Of a stretch of 64,000 nt of DNA, positions 9,887 to 64,000 are shown piece after piece. Below the pieces are notes generated by a model. That model was not told the DNA's origin, ran no database searches, and saw only the letters and a list, made by a program, of their open reading frames with translations. How positions within the stretch are numbered: the first letter of the stretch is position 1; every line of letters begins with the position of its first letter. This DNA is from Stackebrandtia nassauensis DSM 44728 (lineage in GTDB: Bacteria > Actinomycetota > Actinomycetes > Mycobacteriales > Micromonosporaceae): positions 5,952,001 through 6,016,000 of the forward strand of contig NC_013947.1 of the NCBI RefSeq assembly GCF_000024545.1, written 5' to 3'. Position numbers and translations under genes: made by a program.

Positions 9887-10930
9887 CTAGCCGACAACTC
9901 GCTCGCGGCTAACGGGTACTCGCTCCGGCCGCCGCAGCATCGCGGCCAGCACCTTCCACAGTCCGTAAGCCAGCGCGGCGATCCCGAACAGGGTCAGCAG
10001 TCCGGGCGGCCCCCACACGTACCCCAGCCACACCGGCGTCGGCCTCGACGGACTCGCGACGGCCAGCGCCAGCATGTACAGATTGAACAGGGTCGGCAGG
10101 CCGAGCGCCAGCGCCGCCACGGTCAGCGGTCCAGCCAGTATGGACTTCCGCACTCCGCCCCAGTGCGCCATCAGCTGTTCCAGCCAGACGATGACCGCCC
10201 AGCCGAGTATGGCGCCGAGGATCAGCCCGGCGGCAGCGAGGACGAGCACCGTCGGTGGCTGAGCGCGCTCGATGTGGACACTGGTGGTACTGCTCGCCGT
10301 CGCGTCACCGTCGGTGCGCACCGTCACGAGCAAGCCGTCGCGAGTCGCGGTGAACTCGGTGCCGTACTCCGTGGCGGCCAAGGGTTCCACGTCCCAGCCA
10401 GCAGCCGTCAGATTGCGGTTCGCCTGCTTCAGGAGCCGTCGCTCGTCGTTGACGTGTTCGACGGCGAACCCGCGAAACCCGGCGCCGTAGTCGTCGCCGC
10501 CGAGATGCAGCATCGACGCGTCCGTGGAGCCCCAGCCGAACAGGACGTCGCGGGACTCCGCGGCCTTCGCTCCCGGTACGGCGGTGTCGGCAATCCGGGC
10601 CGCCGCGTCCTGATCCGGCAGGCCGGACGCGTTCTGCCAGCCCGCGAGCGCGCCGCCAGCCGCCCCCAGCACACCGATGATGATCGCCGCGAGGACGGCC
10701 ATCACTCGTGCCGACGTCGTCCCCGCGGTCAACCGCAGTCGCAGTCCACGAAGGACGAGCATCGCGTCCTCCCCCACCGGCGCGCGGTCCCGGGCCTCGG
10801 CGGCGTCCACGAGGGTCGTCAGCATCTCCTCACCGCGCTCGCGGCGATAGTCGGGTGGATAGGCGCGCAGCAGTCGTCGGTAGCGACGTTCCAGCGTCGA
10901 GGCGTCGTTCACTTCGGTGGCTTCACGCAT
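9887..10930 (-). CDS. Membrane protein with HAAS-like N-terminus
   Basis: A 347-residue protein. The N-terminus (LRAYPPDYRRERGEEMLTTLVDAAE) resembles the HAAS/permease-prefix region, which in actinobacteria is usually encoded next to PadR regulators. One TM segment follows, then an extracytoplasmic stretch of about 130 residues, and three or four C-terminal TM segments. The ATG at 10930 is where the similarity begins; the longer frame to 11029 was discarded. No PadR gene is adjacent. Function unknown. Confidence 0.75.
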   Translation of the reverse strand: MREATEVNDASTLERRYRRLLRAYPPDYRRERGEEMLTTLVDAAEARDRAPVGEDAMLVLRGLRLRLTAGTTSARVMAVLAAIIIGVLGAAGGALAGWQNASGLPDQDAAARIADTAVPGAKAAESRDVLFGWGSTDASMLHLGGDDYGAGFRGFAVEHVNDERRLLKQANRNLTAAGWDVEPLAATEYGTEFTATRDGLLVTVRTDGDATASSTTSVHIERAQPPTVLVLAAAGLILGAILGWAVIVWLEQLMAHWGGVRKSILAGPLTVAALALGLPTLFNLYMLALAVASPSRPTPVWLGYVWGPPGLLTLFGIAALAYGLWKVLAAMLRRPERVPVSRERVVG

Positions 10931-10976
10931 GACATGGAATATACCAGCAAATGGAGTATTCCCGTTCGCGCCGGTT

Positions 10977-11858
10977 TCAGCTCCCCGGCGGCCGCGTCGG
11001 CGGCTGGGCGGGCGGCTGCCCGTAGCCACCCGAGACCGGCGGCGGGTAGCCCGCGTTTGCTTGCGGCTGTTGGTAACCCGCGTTCGGCTGCGGGTACCCG
11101 GGCGCGGGCTGTCCGTACGCCATCCCCGGCTGCGGATGTCCGGCCACGGCGAACTGCCCCGGCATCGGCTGCGGCGCGACCGGGGTTGCCCCCGCGATGC
11201 TCGACGCGACGAAGCCGCGCAGCTTCGCCAGTCCGAACAGGATGTACCCGAAGACGATCGCGGTGACCAGGAACATGCCCGTGTACATGAGGAACTCGGA
11301 GTTGCCGGGGTCGAGAATGCCGCCGTACAGCATCGGCGCCTCCCCCGCGAGGTTCGCCAGAATCAGGTACAGCAACGGGAACCCGATCCAGGTCACCGGA
11401 TGCCAGGCCCGCGTCCGCGCCGAGAACCGTCCGACGAGGACGAAGTCGGCGGCCACGATCAGCGGCGTCAGCAGGTGCTCGAACAGGAACCCGGTCTCGC
11501 CCAGATCGCCCTCTCCCAGGATGAAGATCGAGGCGATGCAGATCAGCATCATCATCGACGCCAGCGCTCCCCGCACCCAGGCCACCACCGGCTCGGCCTT
11601 CTCGCCGCCGGGGATCAGCGGGATCGGGGCCATCAGCCCGTACAGGATCGCCGCGACCAGGCTGCCCGACTGGCTGAGGAACCACAGGTCCGACCAGCCC
11701 AGCACCGGGTCGTAGGCCACCAGGAACACGCCGTAGAACGCGCACGCGGCGACGATCAGCCGCCACCCCGCCGTGCCGATGTTGGTCAGCACCGGCGGCA
11801 GCATCGGGGCCGGAGCGGGAGGCGGAGCAGCGGGAGGCGCGGCGGCGGGCGGATACAT
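10977..11858 (-). CDS. Pr6Pr-like membrane protein with proline-rich tails
   Basis: A 293-residue protein with about six TM segments between residues 25 and 215. The internal pattern FEHLLTPLIVAADFVLVG followed by FPLLYLI fits the Pr6Pr (FAR-17a/AIG1-like) family. The N-terminus is a short Pro/Ala-rich tail. The C-terminal 70 residues are a low-complexity Gln/Pro/Gly/Tyr region with repeated GYPQP/GYQQP-like units. The start at 11858 has AGGAGTGG upstream. The biochemical role of the family is not established. Confidence 0.7.
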   Translation of the reverse strand: MYPPAAAPPAAPPPAPAPMLPPVLTNIGTAGWRLIVAACAFYGVFLVAYDPVLGWSDLWFLSQSGSLVAAILYGLMAPIPLIPGGEKAEPVVAWVRGALASMMMLICIASIFILGEGDLGETGFLFEHLLTPLIVAADFVLVGRFSARTRAWHPVTWIGFPLLYLILANLAGEAPMLYGGILDPGNSEFLMYTGMFLVTAIVFGYILFGLAKLRGFVASSIAGATPVAPQPMPGQFAVAGHPQPGMAYGQPAPGYPQPNAGYQQPQANAGYPPPVSGGYGQPPAQPPTRPPGS

Positions 11859-58651: not shown

Positions 58652-58723
58652 ATGGAATGGATCGTCGAAATCAGCAGCGAACCGGCTCACCGGACGTACG
58701 ACAACGGCAACTGCGTCTGTTAG
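58652..58723 (+). CDS. 23-residue candidate RiPP precursor peptide ending Cys-Val-Cys
   Basis: A tiny gene, easily missed. ATG at 58652 follows AGAAAGG (58637-58643) at ideal spacing; 22 codons follow before TAG at 58721-58723. The peptide starts MEWIVEISSE and ends TYDNGNCVC, so both cysteines (C21 and the C-terminal C23) sit in the last three residues. It lies directly before a radical SAM/SPASM maturase and a cysteine decarboxylase, and a perfect hairpin follows it. A C-terminal Cys is exactly what EpiD-type enzymes act on. No PqqD-like gene or protease is nearby, so how a leader would be removed is unknown; the core may be the C-terminal third. Assignment rests on context, start signal and the Cys ending. 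Confidence 0.72.
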   Translation: MEWIVEISSEPAHRTYDNGNCVC

Positions 58724-58731
58724 TCGATGAC

Positions 58732-58763
58732 GGCGGTGGCGGTACCACCTGACCGCCACCGCC
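58732..58763 (+). terminator. Attenuator-like hairpin after the precursor gene
   Basis: A perfect 12-bp stem, GGCGGTGGCGGT (58732-58743) and its complement (58752-58763), loop ACCACCTG, starts 9 nt after the precursor stop codon. RiPP operons often have such a partial terminator to make far more precursor than enzyme. It also supports 58652-58723 being a real cistron and the maturase start being downstream. Confidence 0.7.
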
Positions 58764-58834
58764 ACACCGTCCGTGGCCAACTCCCCATTCGCTTCCCCCC
58801 TGAAGTCCGTCATCCGCAGACGAAAGACGAGACC

Positions 58835-60184
58835 ATGACAACCGTTACCTATGGGCCATCGAAATATGTCAGTTTCGCGTTCGATAACGACGGCGCGCTG
58901 ATCGTGCAGTCCACCCGAACCGGAGCGATCGGCGTCGTACCGTCCGACAAGGCCGAGGACGCCCGCAAGGCCTTGCTGCCGGGCAGCACGGTGAGCAACA
59001 CATCGGACGGAATCCTCAAAGACTTGAAGGACGGAGGATTCCTGGTACCCAGCACCATGGACGAAGACCAGCTGGTGCACGACCGGTACATCAAGCGGTA
59101 CCAGAAGAACCGGCTCGACCTCATTCTCATGCCGACAGAGCAGTGCAACTTTCGATGCGTCTACTGCTACGAATCGTTCATCAGGGGCGAGATGTCTCCC
59201 GAACTCGTGGCCGGACTGCACAGCTTCATCGCGGCAGAACACAGGGTCAACGGATTGGAGAGCCTGAACGTCTCCTGGTTCGGCGGCGAACCGCTACTAG
59301 CCGCCGACCTGGTGCTCGACACCACTCGCAGCCTGGCAGATTACTGTCGTGCCAACGGGATCGCGTCGAAGTTCAGCGCCACGACCAACGGCTACCTCCT
59401 CAAGCCCGGCTACGCCGAGAAGGTCGTCCAAGCCGGGGTACGCCATTTCCAGATCACATTGGACGGAACCAAACACGACCATGACAAGCGACGCGTCGAC
59501 ATCGATGGGGCCGAGACATTCGACGTCATCATGGCGAACCTCCGCCATCTCAAGTCCACAGATCTCGACTTCACCATCATGTTGCGACACAATTTCGATC
59601 CCGAAGGTCTGCGGCGCCTCGACGACTACATCGACATGATTCAGCGGGAATTCAGCGATGACCCCCGATACACCACGCATTTCGCTGCCATAGGCAAATG
59701 GGGAGGCGCCAAAGACGACGACCTCGTGGTCTGTGAGGGCCGTACCGGCCCGCAAGCGATCGCCCACGCGCGGGGCCTGGCCATTTCCGCCGGTTTCAAA
59801 GTCGACCTGCTCGAGAACGGCCTGAAGCCCGAGGGTTCCATTTGCTACGCCGCTGATCCACGAAGCTTCGTCATCGGTTCCGACGGAACCGTCTACAAAT
59901 GCACCGTCGAACTCGACTACCACGAACGCAATATGGTCGGCAAACTTCATCCCGACGGCACTATGGACCTCGATTGGCGCAAACTCGCCCTATGGTGCGA
60001 GACCGACGGCACCGACCCGGGCAAGAAGTGCAACTCGTGCTACTTCGGGGGCGCATGTCACGGTGCCGCCTGTCCGAAGGAATGGATGGACGAGGACGAC
60101 TGCCACTGCCCACCAAGCAAACAGGTGATTCGAGAAACGCTTCCCCTTGTGCGGCGCAACTTCGCGGCGGGCGTTCAACGATGA
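58835..60184 (+). CDS. Radical SAM/SPASM peptide maturase
   Basis: A 449-residue enzyme. The radical SAM cluster motif is C104-N-F-R-C108-V-Y-C111, followed by YESF and the SAM-binding GGE in FGGEPLL (residues 150-155). The C-terminal SPASM region has C337, C356 (GTVYKC) and a dense set C399, C402, C408, C413, C423 and C425, enough for two auxiliary iron-sulfur clusters. The first 85 residues resemble the winged-helix/RRE-like front part of sactipeptide and mycofactocin maturases, so it may bind the precursor itself. I set the start at 58835; the frame extends to 58727 but that part lies over the hairpin and has no similarity. It probably makes a carbon-centred crosslink or other change in the Cys-Val-Cys peptide. 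Confidence 0.9.
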   Translation: MTTVTYGPSKYVSFAFDNDGALIVQSTRTGAIGVVPSDKAEDARKALLPGSTVSNTSDGILKDLKDGGFLVPSTMDEDQLVHDRYIKRYQKNRLDLILMPTEQCNFRCVYCYESFIRGEMSPELVAGLHSFIAAEHRVNGLESLNVSWFGGEPLLAADLVLDTTRSLADYCRANGIASKFSATTNGYLLKPGYAEKVVQAGVRHFQITLDGTKHDHDKRRVDIDGAETFDVIMANLRHLKSTDLDFTIMLRHNFDPEGLRRLDDYIDMIQREFSDDPRYTTHFAAIGKWGGAKDDDLVVCEGRTGPQAIAHARGLAISAGFKVDLLENGLKPEGSICYAADPRSFVIGSDGTVYKCTVELDYHERNMVGKLHPDGTMDLDWRKLALWCETDGTDPGKKCNSCYFGGACHGAACPKEWMDEDDCHCPPSKQVIRETLPLVRRNFAAGVQR

Positions 60185-60900
60185 GCTCGCACCCCACCCC
60201 AGCACTACGGACAGGAACCGAGACTCCCGTGCCCGGTATCACAACCCTCCCTTGCGGACGGGTGCTCGTCGGTATCTCCGGCTCCGTCCTCGCCGCCGAG
60301 ATCACGAGCTACCTGCGGGCGCTCCGCAGCAGACTGGCCAGCGAGATCGTCGTCTTCGTGACCACGTCAGCGCGGCAGTTCGTGACACTCGACATGCTGA
60401 AGCTCTACGCCGACGACATCGTCCTGGCCGACCGCCCCGGTCGCTTCCGGGTACCTCACATCGACGGCCCGGATTGGGCGGACGTCTTCGCGATCGTCCC
60501 CGCCTCGGCGAACACACTCGGCAAGGCCGCCAACGGAATAGCCGACGATCTCCTGTCAACGGCGATGGTCGCCGCGGACAAGCCGATCTTCTTCGCCCCG
60601 GCCATGAACGTGAGGATGTGGCGATCGGCCCCGGTGCGTCGAAACGTACAGCGGCTCAGGGAGGACGGGCATTACATCGTCGAACCCGATGTCGGGTTGG
60701 CGTTGTCGAGTGGGCTCGCCGAAGGGGTCGCCCCAACGGCCGAGAAGGTGTTGTCTCATTTGTGGCACTTCAGAATGCGGCAACTCCGGGACGACTACTG
60801 GGATGAGGCGATCAGTGTCGCGCCCCGTCCGCCTGCCGCGTTGACGGCGGCCACAAGGACCAGTCTGCCGTTGACCGTGGCGAGTGGTTCCGGGAAGTAG
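60181..60900 (+). CDS. EpiD-like (HFCD) flavoprotein cysteine decarboxylase
   Basis: A 239-residue flavoprotein of the HFCD family (EpiD, MrsD, Dfp/CoaC). Visible: flavin-binding GISGS (31-35), the catalytic-type H93 in RVPHID, PASANT (107-112), and PAMNVRMW (140-147), the substrate clamp. EpiD oxidatively decarboxylates the C-terminal Cys of its peptide to an enethiol. Dfp makes pantetheine phosphate instead, but Dfp is normally fused to CoaB and not found in RiPP loci. Here the start overlaps the maturase stop by 4 nt (ATGA), and the neighbouring precursor ends in Cys, so peptide decarboxylation is the best reading. Confidence 0.87.
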   Translation: MSSHPTPALRTGTETPVPGITTLPCGRVLVGISGSVLAAEITSYLRALRSRLASEIVVFVTTSARQFVTLDMLKLYADDIVLADRPGRFRVPHIDGPDWADVFAIVPASANTLGKAANGIADDLLSTAMVAADKPIFFAPAMNVRMWRSAPVRRNVQRLREDGHYIVEPDVGLALSSGLAEGVAPTAEKVLSHLWHFRMRQLRDDYWDEAISVAPRPPAALTAATRTSLPLTVASGSGK

Positions 60901-60954
60901 TGTGAATGAGACGCGTGAATCTCCGGGACTCTCCCGCGGACGGTGAGGTGCGCC

Positions 60955-63060
60955 GTGTTCCATCCACTTGAAGGCCTTGCCGGTCTTCGGCGATCTCTTG
61001 GTGGCAGATATCTGAGAATCGTCACCGCGCATGGAATCTCGGTCATCGGTGACTCCTTCACGTTGCCCACCATGATGTTGTGGATCTACGCGACCTCGGC
61101 TCATCGGGTGCAGTGGCTCGGCTGGGTCATGGTGGCGCAGTATCTGCCACGGGTACTCGCCGGGGCTTTACTGTCCCGATTTGCCGACCTGCCACATCGG
61201 GGTCGGGTGATGGTGATCTGCGATCTCGTGAGAGTCGTCGTGACACTCGCTCTGCTGGTGGCGATGTGGCAGGGCGATATCGTGTTGGCCCTGGTTCTGC
61301 TGGCCGCTTCGTCGGGGATCGGGACGGTGTTCTTCTCCGCGCAGGAAGCCTCGATTCCGGTGCTGGTGGACCGGGACGCGATCACCCAGGCCAATGCCGT
61401 CCTGCAGGGGACGAATCAGAGTGTCTTCGCGTTCGCTCCGGCCGTGGCGGTGTTCGTGTACGTGCTCGTGGGACCCTACTGGGCCATCGCGTTCGACGCG
61501 GCGACCTTCGCCGTCTCCGCTGTCATCCTGCTTCGGTTGTGGCGACTCGAAACCACCGCTGATCGTGGTGACGCGTCGGATGTCCGGGAGACTCGATCAC
61601 AGCGCACGGCCAATATCTGGCAGGGCATCGTGGCGGCGGGTTTCGCCGCCGCCGCGATCAGTCTGTCAGCAGGAATCAATCAGACCGTCATGATCGCGGT
61701 ACTCGACCGCGATCTGGGTGGCGCCGCCACCGACATCGGGTGGTTGTCGATTGCCAACGGGATCGCCCAGGTGTCAGTTCTGGGGCTCGTGGTCACCTTC
61801 GCGGCTCGCATTCGCGGCAGCTGGTTGCTGCTCGTGTCGGCGGCGGGGATGGCGCTCGGGCAGTTCGCGGTCTCGCAGGCGGGTTCGTTGACCGTGCTCA
61901 TCGCCGCGGTTGTCGTCACTTCGCTCGTGAACGCGCCGTTCAACGTCGCCACGGCGACCTTGCAGCAACGCTCCACCGGCAATCGGCATCGAGGCAGGGT
62001 CCTGGGCAGGGTGACGGCGGTGAAGGCCGCGATGTTCGTCGTCGGTGCCCTCGGCGGCGGCTGGCTGGCCGATCTCATCGGTGGTCGTGCCACGCTGGTG
62101 GTCTCCGCACTCGCCTGTCTGGCCGCCCTCGTCGCCGCGATCTTCCTGCGCACATCACATCGAGTGTCGGAAATCGACCATGACACACCGCCAGCCGTGT
62201 CCAACTCGATTCCCGAGGCCAAGTTAGATCGAATCGGCTCGTTGATAGGGCGCGCGGAGGATCTCGCCGATCTGCTTGCTGTCCCGGGTCAGGAACGCCC
62301 GGTGAAGCCTGAATGTTTCGGTCGGCGGGTCGAGGCCCAGCGTCTCCCGGTAGTGCTGACGGCATTGTTCGAAGCTGCGCAGTCCGGCAGCGGCACCGTT
62401 CGCGTGGAACTGGGCGATCATCGCCAGCTGCCACGTCCGGTCCGAGTCCACGCACTCACCGAGCAGCGTTTGTATCTCGGCTGTCAGCAGGTGCCAGTCA
62501 TTCGCGAGCAGCCGCGCCGTGAAGTAGTCGCGTTTCACGTCGCGATAGGCGGCGTTGACGGCGACCGCCTGGCCGTCGAGCCATCGACTGGCGGGAAGGC
62601 CGGTTCCGAACGGTCCTCGCCACAACCGCATCGCCTGTCGGCAGAGTCCGATGGCCTGGGAGGCGGCACCGTTCCTGATGTTGTGCCGGGCATCGACCGC
62701 GAGCGCGCGAAACTGATCGAGGTCCAGGGCGTGGGCGGACAAGTCGAGCTGATATCCATCATGGAGAACTGTCCTCAGCTTCTTGGACTCCCCCTGGTGA
62801 ATCATGTCGAATTCGCGTCGCAGCGTACTGATGATGCTGCGCAGGTTCGCGGCCGCGGAGCTCGGCGGGTTGTCCCACAGCAGATCCGCCAGTCTGCCAA
62901 CCGATACCGGTGTTCCACGATGGAGTGCCAATGCCGCGATCACGGCGCGCCGCAACCGGGACCGCGGCGTCACCACAGTCATCGGACTCGCGAGGTGGAC
63001 TTCTCCGAGAACCCGAACGAAAACTTCCAACTTCCATTCTCCGTACCAGCCGACCCGTGA
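60955..63060 (+). CDS. MFS exporter (frame overlaps the SARP gene at its end)
   Basis: The first roughly 415 residues are an MFS transporter with 12 TM segments (VTAHGISVIGDSFTLPTMML, then RFADLPHRGRVMVICDL as the signature loop). The frame stays open for another 285 codons to 63060, but that part is the exact antisense of the SARP gene and shows no membrane or other recognisable features. The real protein either carries this unusual tail or a stop has been lost near 62200. The GTG at 60955 was picked because GGTGAGG lies six bases upstream; a GTG at 60943 is also in frame. It follows the decarboxylase after 54 nt, so exports the peptide product, in all likelihood. Confidence 0.75.
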   Translation: MFHPLEGLAGLRRSLGGRYLRIVTAHGISVIGDSFTLPTMMLWIYATSAHRVQWLGWVMVAQYLPRVLAGALLSRFADLPHRGRVMVICDLVRVVVTLALLVAMWQGDIVLALVLLAASSGIGTVFFSAQEASIPVLVDRDAITQANAVLQGTNQSVFAFAPAVAVFVYVLVGPYWAIAFDAATFAVSAVILLRLWRLETTADRGDASDVRETRSQRTANIWQGIVAAGFAAAAISLSAGINQTVMIAVLDRDLGGAATDIGWLSIANGIAQVSVLGLVVTFAARIRGSWLLLVSAAGMALGQFAVSQAGSLTVLIAAVVVTSLVNAPFNVATATLQQRSTGNRHRGRVLGRVTAVKAAMFVVGALGGGWLADLIGGRATLVVSALACLAALVAAIFLRTSHRVSEIDHDTPPAVSNSIPEAKLDRIGSLIGRAEDLADLLAVPGQERPVKPECFGRRVEAQRLPVVLTALFEAAQSGSGTVRVELGDHRQLPRPVRVHALTEQRLYLGCQQVPVIREQPRREVVAFHVAIGGVDGDRLAVEPSTGGKAGSERSSPQPHRLSAESDGLGGGTVPDVVPGIDRERAKLIEVQGVGGQVELISIMENCPQLLGLPLVNHVEFASQRTDDAAQVRGRGARRVVPQQIRQSANRYRCSTMECQCRDHGAPQPGPRRHHSHRTREVDFSENPNENFQLPFSVPADP
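62224..63030 (-). CDS. SARP-type regulator of the RiPP cluster
   Basis: A 268-residue small SARP. Residues 1-90 are the winged-helix domain (RSRLRRAVIAALALHRGTPVSVGRLADLLWDNPP) and the rest is a BTAD region (AEIQTLLGECVDSDRTWQLAMIAQF). The start is an unusual TTG at 63030, with GGAG eight bases upstream; no ATG or GTG fits better. Small SARPs activate the clusters they sit in, so the peptide operon running toward it is the likely target. The gene is convergent with the exporter and lies fully inside that gene's open frame. Confidence 0.85.
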   Translation of the reverse strand: MEVFVRVLGEVHLASPMTVVTPRSRLRRAVIAALALHRGTPVSVGRLADLLWDNPPSSAAANLRSIISTLRREFDMIHQGESKKLRTVLHDGYQLDLSAHALDLDQFRALAVDARHNIRNGAASQAIGLCRQAMRLWRGPFGTGLPASRWLDGQAVAVNAAYRDVKRDYFTARLLANDWHLLTAEIQTLLGECVDSDRTWQLAMIAQFHANGAAAGLRSFEQCRQHYRETLGLDPPTETFRLHRAFLTRDSKQIGEILRAPYQRADSI

Positions 63061-63217: not shown

Positions 63218-63553
63218 TCAGACGACGGTGAGTTTGGAGACGTCGTTGTCCAGGGAGGTCTGGGCTCGGGAGCTGACCTCTTCGCTGGGTGATTGGGAGA
63301 GGTAGCCGAAGACCGCGTTGAGGTCGCGCAGGTCGGTGGCGGTGACCGGGATCTTGTGCTGCCGTAGGAGGGCGACCAGGTCCTCCATCGCGATCTGCCA
63401 TTCGCCGGCGCCGGAGTTGCCTCGGATCGAGTCGGCGTAGCGGCGCATGAGGGCGTCGTCGCCGAGTTTGTCGACGAGGCGCTCGATGACGGACTCGCTG
63501 GTGGTGATGAAGTCGGTCAGGTCCATGGCAGGCAGTCTCTCTTCGCTCGTCAC
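63218..63553 (-). CDS. Presumed immunity protein of the EndoU toxin
   Basis: A 111-residue acidic helical protein (ITTSESVIERLVDKLGDDALMRRYADSIRGNSGAGEW region, quoted in part). No family is recognised. The ATG at 63553 overlaps the toxin stop by 4 nt (ATGA); an inner ATG at 63526 is also possible. A small acidic protein encoded right after a polymorphic toxin C-terminus is the standard place for the cognate immunity gene, so the role is inferred from position. Confidence 0.7.
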   Translation of the reverse strand: MTSEERLPAMDLTDFITTSESVIERLVDKLGDDALMRRYADSIRGNSGAGEWQIAMEDLVALLRQHKIPVTATDLRDLNAVFGYLSQSPSEEVSSRAQTSLDNDVSKLTVV

Positions 63554-64000
63554 CGCGGGTTCTTCTTCACGCCCAGGCCCCCGTCGAGGGGGTGCGCCGA
63601 CCAGACCGTGCCGTCGGCGTTGAGGATCACCCTAATGGTGACACCGGCGCGCTGGCCCTGGACTTCGTAGCCCGCTCCGTTGGGGCGGGGTAGCGGTTGG
63701 GAGTCGGGGTTGCGGGCGACGTCGTTGACCATGTCCATGATCTGGTCGTCGGTCCAGTGCTTGGGGAACTCGGTCTTGCCCGGGCGGTTGGTGCCGTAGC
63801 GGTGGCCGCCGGAGGTGGGGTCGTTCTTGTCACCGTCCAGGATGTGGCCCCGGCGTTGGGTGGTGTCGCCCAGGTTCGGCATGGTCTTGCGCGGGTCGGG
63901 TTCGTTGGGCTGGCGGTCGTCCCAGCCGTTCTTGCCGCCCGACTTGCGGGAGGGCGCGGGCGGTGGGGCGCTCGTCGTGGACTTGTTGAGCAGCATGTCG
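63550..64000 (-). CDS. EndoU-family polymorphic toxin, C-terminal part
   Basis: At least 150 codons of a larger gene that continues past position 64000. After a Pro/Ser-rich linker comes a bacterial EndoU nuclease domain: RRGHILDGD (catalytic H51, counting from the Met at 63996), GGHRYGTN (H65), GKTEFPKHW (K74), and VTIRVILNADGTVWSAHPLDGGLG at the end (cited in part). EndoU toxins cleave RNA, often tRNA, and are delivered by contact-dependent, type VII or other secretion routes. The Met at 63996 is probably internal, since these domains sit at the C-terminus of long proteins. Confidence 0.8.
   Translation of the reverse strand, partial: DMLLNKSTTSAPPPAPSRKSGGKNGWDDRQPNEPDPRKTMPNLGDTTQRRGHILDGDKNDPTSGGHRYGTNRPGKTEFPKHWTDDQIMDMVNDVARNPDSQPLPRPNGAGYEVQGQRAGVTIRVILNADGTVWSAHPLDGGLGVKKNPR

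Follow-up and report, generated by a model that had tools for sequence, protein, structure and literature searches.

A radical SAM maturase and a decarboxylase-like flavoprotein beside a Cys-ending peptide in Stackebrandtia nassauensis: a candidate AviCamCys-type ring

How might a short peptide be closed into a ring at its terminal Cys when its neighbors are a cysteine decarboxylase-like flavoprotein and a radical enzyme? The question is raised by a three-gene set in a 64,000-nucleotide stretch of the Stackebrandtia nassauensis chromosome (positions 5952001-6016000 of a genome that consists of one contig with 6,841,557 bases); this whole stretch is called the window here. A preliminary description of the window had read a 23-residue peptide ending in Cys, a maturase of the radical S-adenosylmethionine (SAM)/SPASM type for a ribosomally synthesized and post-translationally modified peptide (RiPP) and, coupled to the maturase by ATGA, a homo-oligomeric flavin-containing Cys decarboxylase (HFCD), and all three were confirmed in the sequence.

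Flavoproteins together with radical SAM enzymes make S-[2-aminovinyl]-3-carbamoylcysteine (AviCamCys), according to a passage of PMC11162475 that cites Cheng, Huang, Duan and Liu (2023, Angew. Chem. e202308733). We consider it on balance probable that the window encodes a product of this type, in which the HFCD and the radical SAM enzyme would link Asn20, through its beta-carbon, to the sulfur that Cys23 keeps after decarboxylation. The HFCD would oxidatively decarboxylate the C-terminal Cys23 to an aminoenethiol (a loss of 46 Da); the radical SAM/SPASM enzyme would abstract a hydrogen from the Asn20 beta-carbon, which would then bond to the sulfur of decarboxylated Cys23 (a further loss of 2 Da), and a four-residue C-terminal ring would close without a dehydratase. 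Because HFCD chemistry needs a free thiol, the HFCD would presumably act first and the maturase second. Cys21 directly follows Asn20 and is the third residue past Asn18, so that an additional plain thioether, Asn18-Cys21, may form, and an adjacent protein of the major facilitator superfamily (MFS) would export the product. These steps and their order we infer from gene content, motif residues, recurrence, the terminal Cys, the register of N-x-x-C and selection on paralogous peptides, all observed here. The features concerned are:

58652..58723, + strand: precursor peptide gene, ATG to stop, 23 codons, MEWIVEISSEPAHRTYDNGNCVC, with an MxWI head and the core DNGNCVC (Asn18, Asn20, Cys21, Cys23)
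58835..60184, + strand: RiPP maturase of the radical SAM/SPASM type, with another possible ATG at 58727 (Pfam Radical_SAM, 3.9e-14)
59144..59167, + strand: CNFRCVYC, the radical SAM cluster cysteines, invariant in 14 of 14 aligned rows
59843..60109, + strand: stretch of SPASM cysteines for auxiliary iron-sulfur clusters (C336, C355, C398, C401, C407, C412, C424)
60181..60900, + strand: HFCD flavoprotein, EpiD/MrsD-like, 239 aa (Pfam Flavoprotein, 2.5e-26), with His93, PASAN at 107-111 and PAMN..MW at 140-147

A ribosome site, AGAAAGG, lies 5' of the peptide ATG at 58652, and an alternative in-frame start farther upstream gives a 54 aa version. Both N-G-N-C and N-C-V-C of the core fit N-x-x-C, in overlap. 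The window has the gene features expected of an AviCamCys-type system, a LanD-like flavoprotein adjoining a radical SAM maturase and a Cys end with Asn at -3, and also those of a ranthipeptide of the NxxC kind, a SPASM radical SAM maturase with N-x-x-C in the core. The preliminary description had seen in the window none of the dehydratases or cyclases of the established classes, and this stood: PF05147 (LanC) and PF04738 (LanB) have seven and three matches in the genome, none inside the window, the nearest ending 199 kb before it, and other dehydratase types were absent from family scans of the neighboring genes, to which that search was limited.

Recurrence of the pairing and the precursor ends

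Genomes were sampled from the GTDB family (354), one other family (150) and the phylum (396). In the GTDB family, a six-row profile matches a maturase at 1e-45 or below in 39 of the 354 genomes; surroundings were examined for 34 of the 41 listed matches, the other seven being weak ones, and an HFCD adjoins the maturase in six genomes, G000 (the genome of the window; twice), G043, G547, G606, G625 and G660. The second family has a maturase in 7 of its 150 genomes, HFCD-paired in four (G757, G788, G822 and G840). Maturase and HFCD therefore stand side by side at 11 loci, the window and 10 further ones; absence of an HFCD was judged with one profile within fetched stretches of 13-19 kb. The phylum search used the single window maturase at 1e-30, and may have let the other of the two HFCD-paired clades described below escape. 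No maturase relative was found in viral contigs; 20 records of a phage collection match, at no more than 31% identity among the ten listed.

Maturase and HFCD frames overlap at eight of the nine loci that lack a peptide gene in between, by ATGA in the window, G043, G606, G625 and L250 and, where a start has to be assumed (L247-L249), by GTGA or TGATG; at the G660 locus the maturase stop comes immediately before the listed start of the HFCD. The G043, G757 and G840 precursors have an aroma_sacti leader domain above the NCBIfam cut-off, and those of G822 and G788 resemble them by eye. After the G043 HFCD comes a B12-type radical SAM protein (L121, 9436-11580), whose top NCBIfam match is a RiPP C-methyltransferase family, below cut-off; L248 has a similar-reading gene.

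A look for homologous loci with a conserved CxC end had been proposed as a check in the preliminary description. The terminal Cys was conserved, in all 12 peptides at the 11 HFCD loci, so that the lack of Cys-ending peptides named there as the outcome that would speak against it was not seen; CxC is confined to the window peptide. Single-Cys relatives rule out a CxC end as the key feature, and they led us to demote dethiolation of the inner Cys. In the clade of the window, where precursors have 23-25 residues and two-Cys cores, the ends read DNGNCVC (window), NNNCGIC and KNNCGIC (both at L005) and NGNCGIC (G547, locus L165). The other HFCD-paired clade has NNNLC, NVNVIC, SVNIAC, SVNVFC, VNVLC, NTNVVC (twice) and NNNTVC, with a single Cys in each of its eight peptides. 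Asn stands at -3 from the terminal Cys in 9 of the 12 HFCD-associated peptides, including that of the window (N-C-V-C).

A terminal Cys was found at 11/11 HFCD loci versus 6/20 HFCD-less loci with a recognized peptide (Fisher p 1.5e-4), and at 8/8 versus 5/15 (p 0.0027) when near-copies were collapsed by hand, which is the only way in which these tests handle relatedness. The 20 come from 31 HFCD-less loci inspected (27 + 4); the other 11 stand outside the 6/20, as do plasmid loci L115-L120 (maturase relatives with no HFCD match), where none of the recognized peptides ends in Cys. The peptides at HFCD loci, too, were sought by a Cys near the end.

Beside HFCD-less relatives of the maturase, 17 of 18 peptides carry N-x-x-C (as NGGC, NAGC, NFGC, NFAC, NSGC, NGVC, NVGC or NCGC/NCSC) and the remaining one D-x-x-C (DGGC), a share that is partly by construction since [ND]..C was the search condition; a search that required no more than a Cys close to the end brought up the majority of these 18. 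Distant plasmid maturases adjoin peptides with NINC, NMHC, NILC and NGNC. As a control within the same loci, 17 of 32 maturases versus 7 of 324 other genes have just upstream a small open reading frame (ORF) that carries N-x-x-C close to its end, the pattern having been picked after the peptides had been seen, and a Cys-ending one precedes 9 of 32 versus 18 of 324.

The maturases of two Deinococcus plasmids (L115, L116; about 40% identity) were tried as members of the same system and set aside, no HFCD having been found there. The maturase gene of these loci adjoins a gene annotated as alkane monooxygenase or LLM oxidoreductase, L116 has annotated LanB-type genes as well, and small ORFs near the two maturases end in DIYCRS and DIMCRG.

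The two enzymes, their clades and the second copy

In the maturase, CNFRCVYC occupies residues 103-110 (numbered from a sequence start at 58838). All seven SPASM cysteines are invariant in a 14-row alignment; in a 15-row alignment that includes shorter plasmid relatives, only C336 and C355 of the seven remain so. The best NCBIfam match is TIGR04463, at 160 bits under its curated cut-off of 525. Foldseek places the maturase model nearest to 5why/5wgg (5why on top, 4.7e-15), whose structure paper concerns thioether formation and whose enzyme we take to be CteB; the structure models are of moderate confidence (pLDDT, the predicted local distance difference test, 80 and 76, the latter for the maturase), and that of the maturase is weak at residues 385-426, a stretch that takes in some of the SPASM region. 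The radical SAM enzyme is the likely source of the crosslink, as had been suggested in the preliminary description.

On the maturase tree (45 rows; L238, L239 and L253 omitted), the HFCD-paired rows need two changes, the starred branches force two, and a single clade of HFCD-paired maturases is rejected by the approximately unbiased test (p-AU 1.6e-126). The HFCD tree (29 rows) also rejects one clade of all 11, less strongly (p-AU 0.012), and it is compatible with a single clade for the two groups that make up the other lineage (p-AU 0.51). These are quick trees, and earlier ones had already been seen before the one-clade tests. By these sequence comparisons the window, L005 and G547 form a separate lineage, for which the maturase gives the clearest evidence. 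An extension of this, which we rate as rather unlikely, is that in the window clade the radical SAM/LanD pairing would have arisen independently and would form two overlapping rings (an Asn18-Cys21 thioether and Asn20-aminovinyl-Cys23), with an aminovinyl ring one residue larger in the CGIC relatives; if true, such a fused bicycle, closed with no dehydratase, would add a new scaffold to the RiPPs.

The second best HFCD match in the chromosome, from 4,989,257 (43% identity), belongs to a complete second set, L005, with a maturase 52% identical to that of the window, two tandem peptide genes, the HFCD (43%) and an MFS gene (10016-11245; Pfam MFS_1, 3.6e-23). Both L005 peptides have the head MVWISEGS after a strong ribosome site and the end NNCGIC, and the MxWI head and Cys end of the window peptide are common to the L005 and L165 peptides. 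Between the two L005 peptides, head and tail together show six synonymous and no nonsynonymous codon differences, and the middle one and nine. The ends are thus under purifying selection, as expected of a recognition segment and a modified core.

Among solved structures, the window flavoprotein is by sequence similarity nearer to peptidyl-cysteine decarboxylases than to enzymes of coenzyme A (CoA) synthesis. The PDB ranking is MrsD (1.9e-26), 7cfu (SpaF by its structure title; 1.3e-25), 6jls (TvaF; 1.1e-20), EpiD (8.5e-20) and then CoaBC (5.7e-16), and Foldseek puts MrsD on top (8.1e-15). One of the four matches in an HFCD search of the genome, at 3,336,479 (L163), is the organism's own CoaBC (374 bits versus a cut-off of 219.7), and the window protein scores below the cut-offs of both CoaBC and CoaC (77 bits for CoaC, cut-off 261.4). 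The EpiD-like cysteine decarboxylase of the preliminary description is borne out by this ranking and by the separate CoaBC, and the other outcome that would have counted against that description, a flavoprotein of CoA synthesis, was not encountered, although judged by sequence such a role keeps a small probability.

A contig scan for HFCD relatives kept 80 loci, mostly CoaBC-like by frame length and score, which were used only as outgroup. At 25 HFCD-relative loci (L122-L125, L129-L132, and L166-L184 minus L178 and L180) no maturase was found at 1e-20, and these were set aside as other HFCD operons. At L124, L129 and L131 the maturase-less HFCD gene follows a gene of about 320 codons and precedes a DNA topoisomerase gene (called by Pfam in L131, by reading in L124 and L129).

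Counter-evidence and rival explanations

Several observations weigh against the Asn20-Cys23 ring, beginning with the precursors. In three of the four window-clade peptides (NNNCGIC, KNNCGIC and NGNCGIC) a Cys stands at -3 and the Asn at -4, where this ring could close only with i,i+4 spacing or with a different partner, and KNNCGIC lacks any N-x-x-C. Cys ends occur without an HFCD at L128, L219, L223, L225, L251 and L254, and at L251 and L254 the end is N-x-x-C itself. At these last two loci a methyltransferase gene (by Pfam) adjoins the maturase, and L254 also has an annotated SagB/ThcOx dehydrogenase; these neighbors are perhaps another C-terminal finish.

With the precursors in mind, the maturase could instead make only the Asn18-Cys21 C-beta thioether, the HFCD independently giving a Cys23 enethiol or derivative to which nothing is bonded. 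Such a pair of separate modifications would suit the presence of N-x-x-C at the inner Cys in three of four window-clade peptides (the window, the first of L005 and L165) and the fact that, within this clade, only the window peptide has Asn at -3 of its terminal Cys. The eight single-Cys peptides of the other clade tell against it, since one sulfur has to serve both enzymes there, if both act, and on general chemical grounds an enethiol left free would probably not be stable; we find this explanation doubtful. The C-G-I-C ends offer another partner, as their i,i+3 spacing in three of the four window-clade peptides would permit an S-[2-aminovinyl]cysteine (AviCys)-like ring that links the terminal Cys to the one at -3, the inner Cys having been made an electrophile by the radical enzyme. 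The model for this is cypemycin, whose ring motif is C-L-V-C. This is improbable: in the window peptide (C-V-C) the inner Cys is at -2, the window encodes no LanB/LanC homologue, and the other clade's peptides, with one Cys each, could not form such a ring.

The enzymes also supply points against the Asn20-Cys23 ring. The window maturase is only 22-25% identical to two aligned maturases of the other HFCD-paired clade; the window clade is held by a support of 34 on the HFCD tree versus 97 on the maturase tree, and the HFCD tree puts it, weakly (support 52), on the CoaBC side. The highest NCBIfam score of the flavoprotein is for CoaBC (123 bits, below the cut-off of 219.7), CypD gives it only 25 bits, and by fold a phosphopantothenoylcysteine (PPC) decarboxylase mutant comes ninth, close after EpiD. 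The ACG cysteine motif is present in none of the 11 paired HFCDs, the window one included, and in 83 of the 84 rows of CoaBC length in the wider set; it is also missing from the organism's own CoaBC and from 8 of 11 CoaBC-length frames of the actinobacterial search. Since the own CoaBC lacks it too, the motif is not diagnostic here, and its absence was dropped as an argument against a CoA role.

The CoaBC score, the weak tree placement and the uninformative ACG cysteine could mean that the flavoprotein is a CoaC-like enzyme, present by chance and inactive on the peptide. We judge this very improbable, as the genome encodes a separate CoaBC with PAMHTEMW and GRLTGADTG where the window HFCD has PAMNVRMW and LALSSGLAE, the pairing with Cys-ending peptides recurs at 11 loci, and stop and start overlap with the maturase at eight of nine loci (three with assumed GTG or TGATG starts).

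Flanking genes and comparison with known systems

Two genes follow the HFCD:

60943..62187, + strand: MFS exporter, directly after the HFCD (Pfam MFS_1, 5e-27), frame open to 63060
62224..63030, - strand: regulator of the Streptomyces antibiotic regulatory protein (SARP) type beside the cluster (Pfam BTAD, 4.7e-23)

Beyond its MFS domain the MFS frame (60943-63060, +) continues for about 290 codons on the strand opposite the SARP gene, and a frameshift or a lost stop is possible. At the window edge lies an EndoU_bacteria nuclease domain (63550-63999, -; 2.8e-18), which could be the toxic terminus of a polymorphic or contact-dependent toxin. Upstream of the cluster G+C is 0.65-0.72, and over the maturase (59000-59999) it drops to 0.59, perhaps a sign of acquisition.

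With CoaC/CoaBC the window flavoprotein shares the HFCD fold and the His and PASAN-type motifs; unlike the organism's own CoaBC, it has no ligase domain, PAMN rather than PAMH, and no GRLTGADTG..GRLP stretch. With the S-[2-aminovinyl](3-methyl)cysteine (Avi(Me)Cys) peptides epidermin, mersacidin, cypemycin and thioviridamide the system shares an EpiD/MrsD/TvaF-like HFCD and a terminal Cys. Their rings, however, come from dehydroamino acids, as the relevant passages of PMC11162475 and PMC9415263 have it, whereas the window lacks LanB/LanC homologues and its recurring residue is Asn. The Avi(Me)Cys mining rule quoted in PMC11162475 asks for a Ser or Thr followed, after two to six intervening residues, by the terminal Cys and would miss the window peptide, because seven residues separate Thr15, the nearest, from that Cys. 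The ranthipeptide pair NxxcA/NxxcB has a radical SAM maturase and the Asn-x-x-Cys spacing in common with the window; streptococcal NxxcA carries a C-beta thioether from Cys23 to Asn20, and no flavoprotein is mentioned in the portion of PMC8326336 that describes it.

Titles and opening abstract lines of PubMed Central (PMC) literature on Stackebrandtia nassauensis and RiPPs hold nothing on this cluster, and the PMC library yielded no paper that names AviCamCys beyond PMC11162475. The pairing turns the 2023 chemistry into a searchable rule (N-x-x-C maturase, HFCD and terminal Cys), with 11 loci in two maturase clades, and the loci listed where the same maturase family works without a decarboxylase stand beside it. 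The two-Cys, 23-25 residue precursors offer a compact test case of what decides which of two sulfurs a radical enzyme uses.

The closest likeness is to the AviCamCys system itself, in gene content (a flavoprotein and a radical SAM enzyme) and in the predicted product, a decarboxylated Cys sulfur on an Asn beta-carbon; the 2023 enzymes enter this comparison through their citation in PMC11162475 alone. The preliminary description could match the route to no described class, a point that found no support here: since the making of AviCamCys by a radical SAM enzyme and a flavoprotein was reported in 2023, as cited there, this chemistry had already been described. The part that appears to be new is the window lineage with its second Cys, set apart by two-Cys cores and 23-25 residue precursors, and for which no joint clade with the other HFCD-paired maturases was found.

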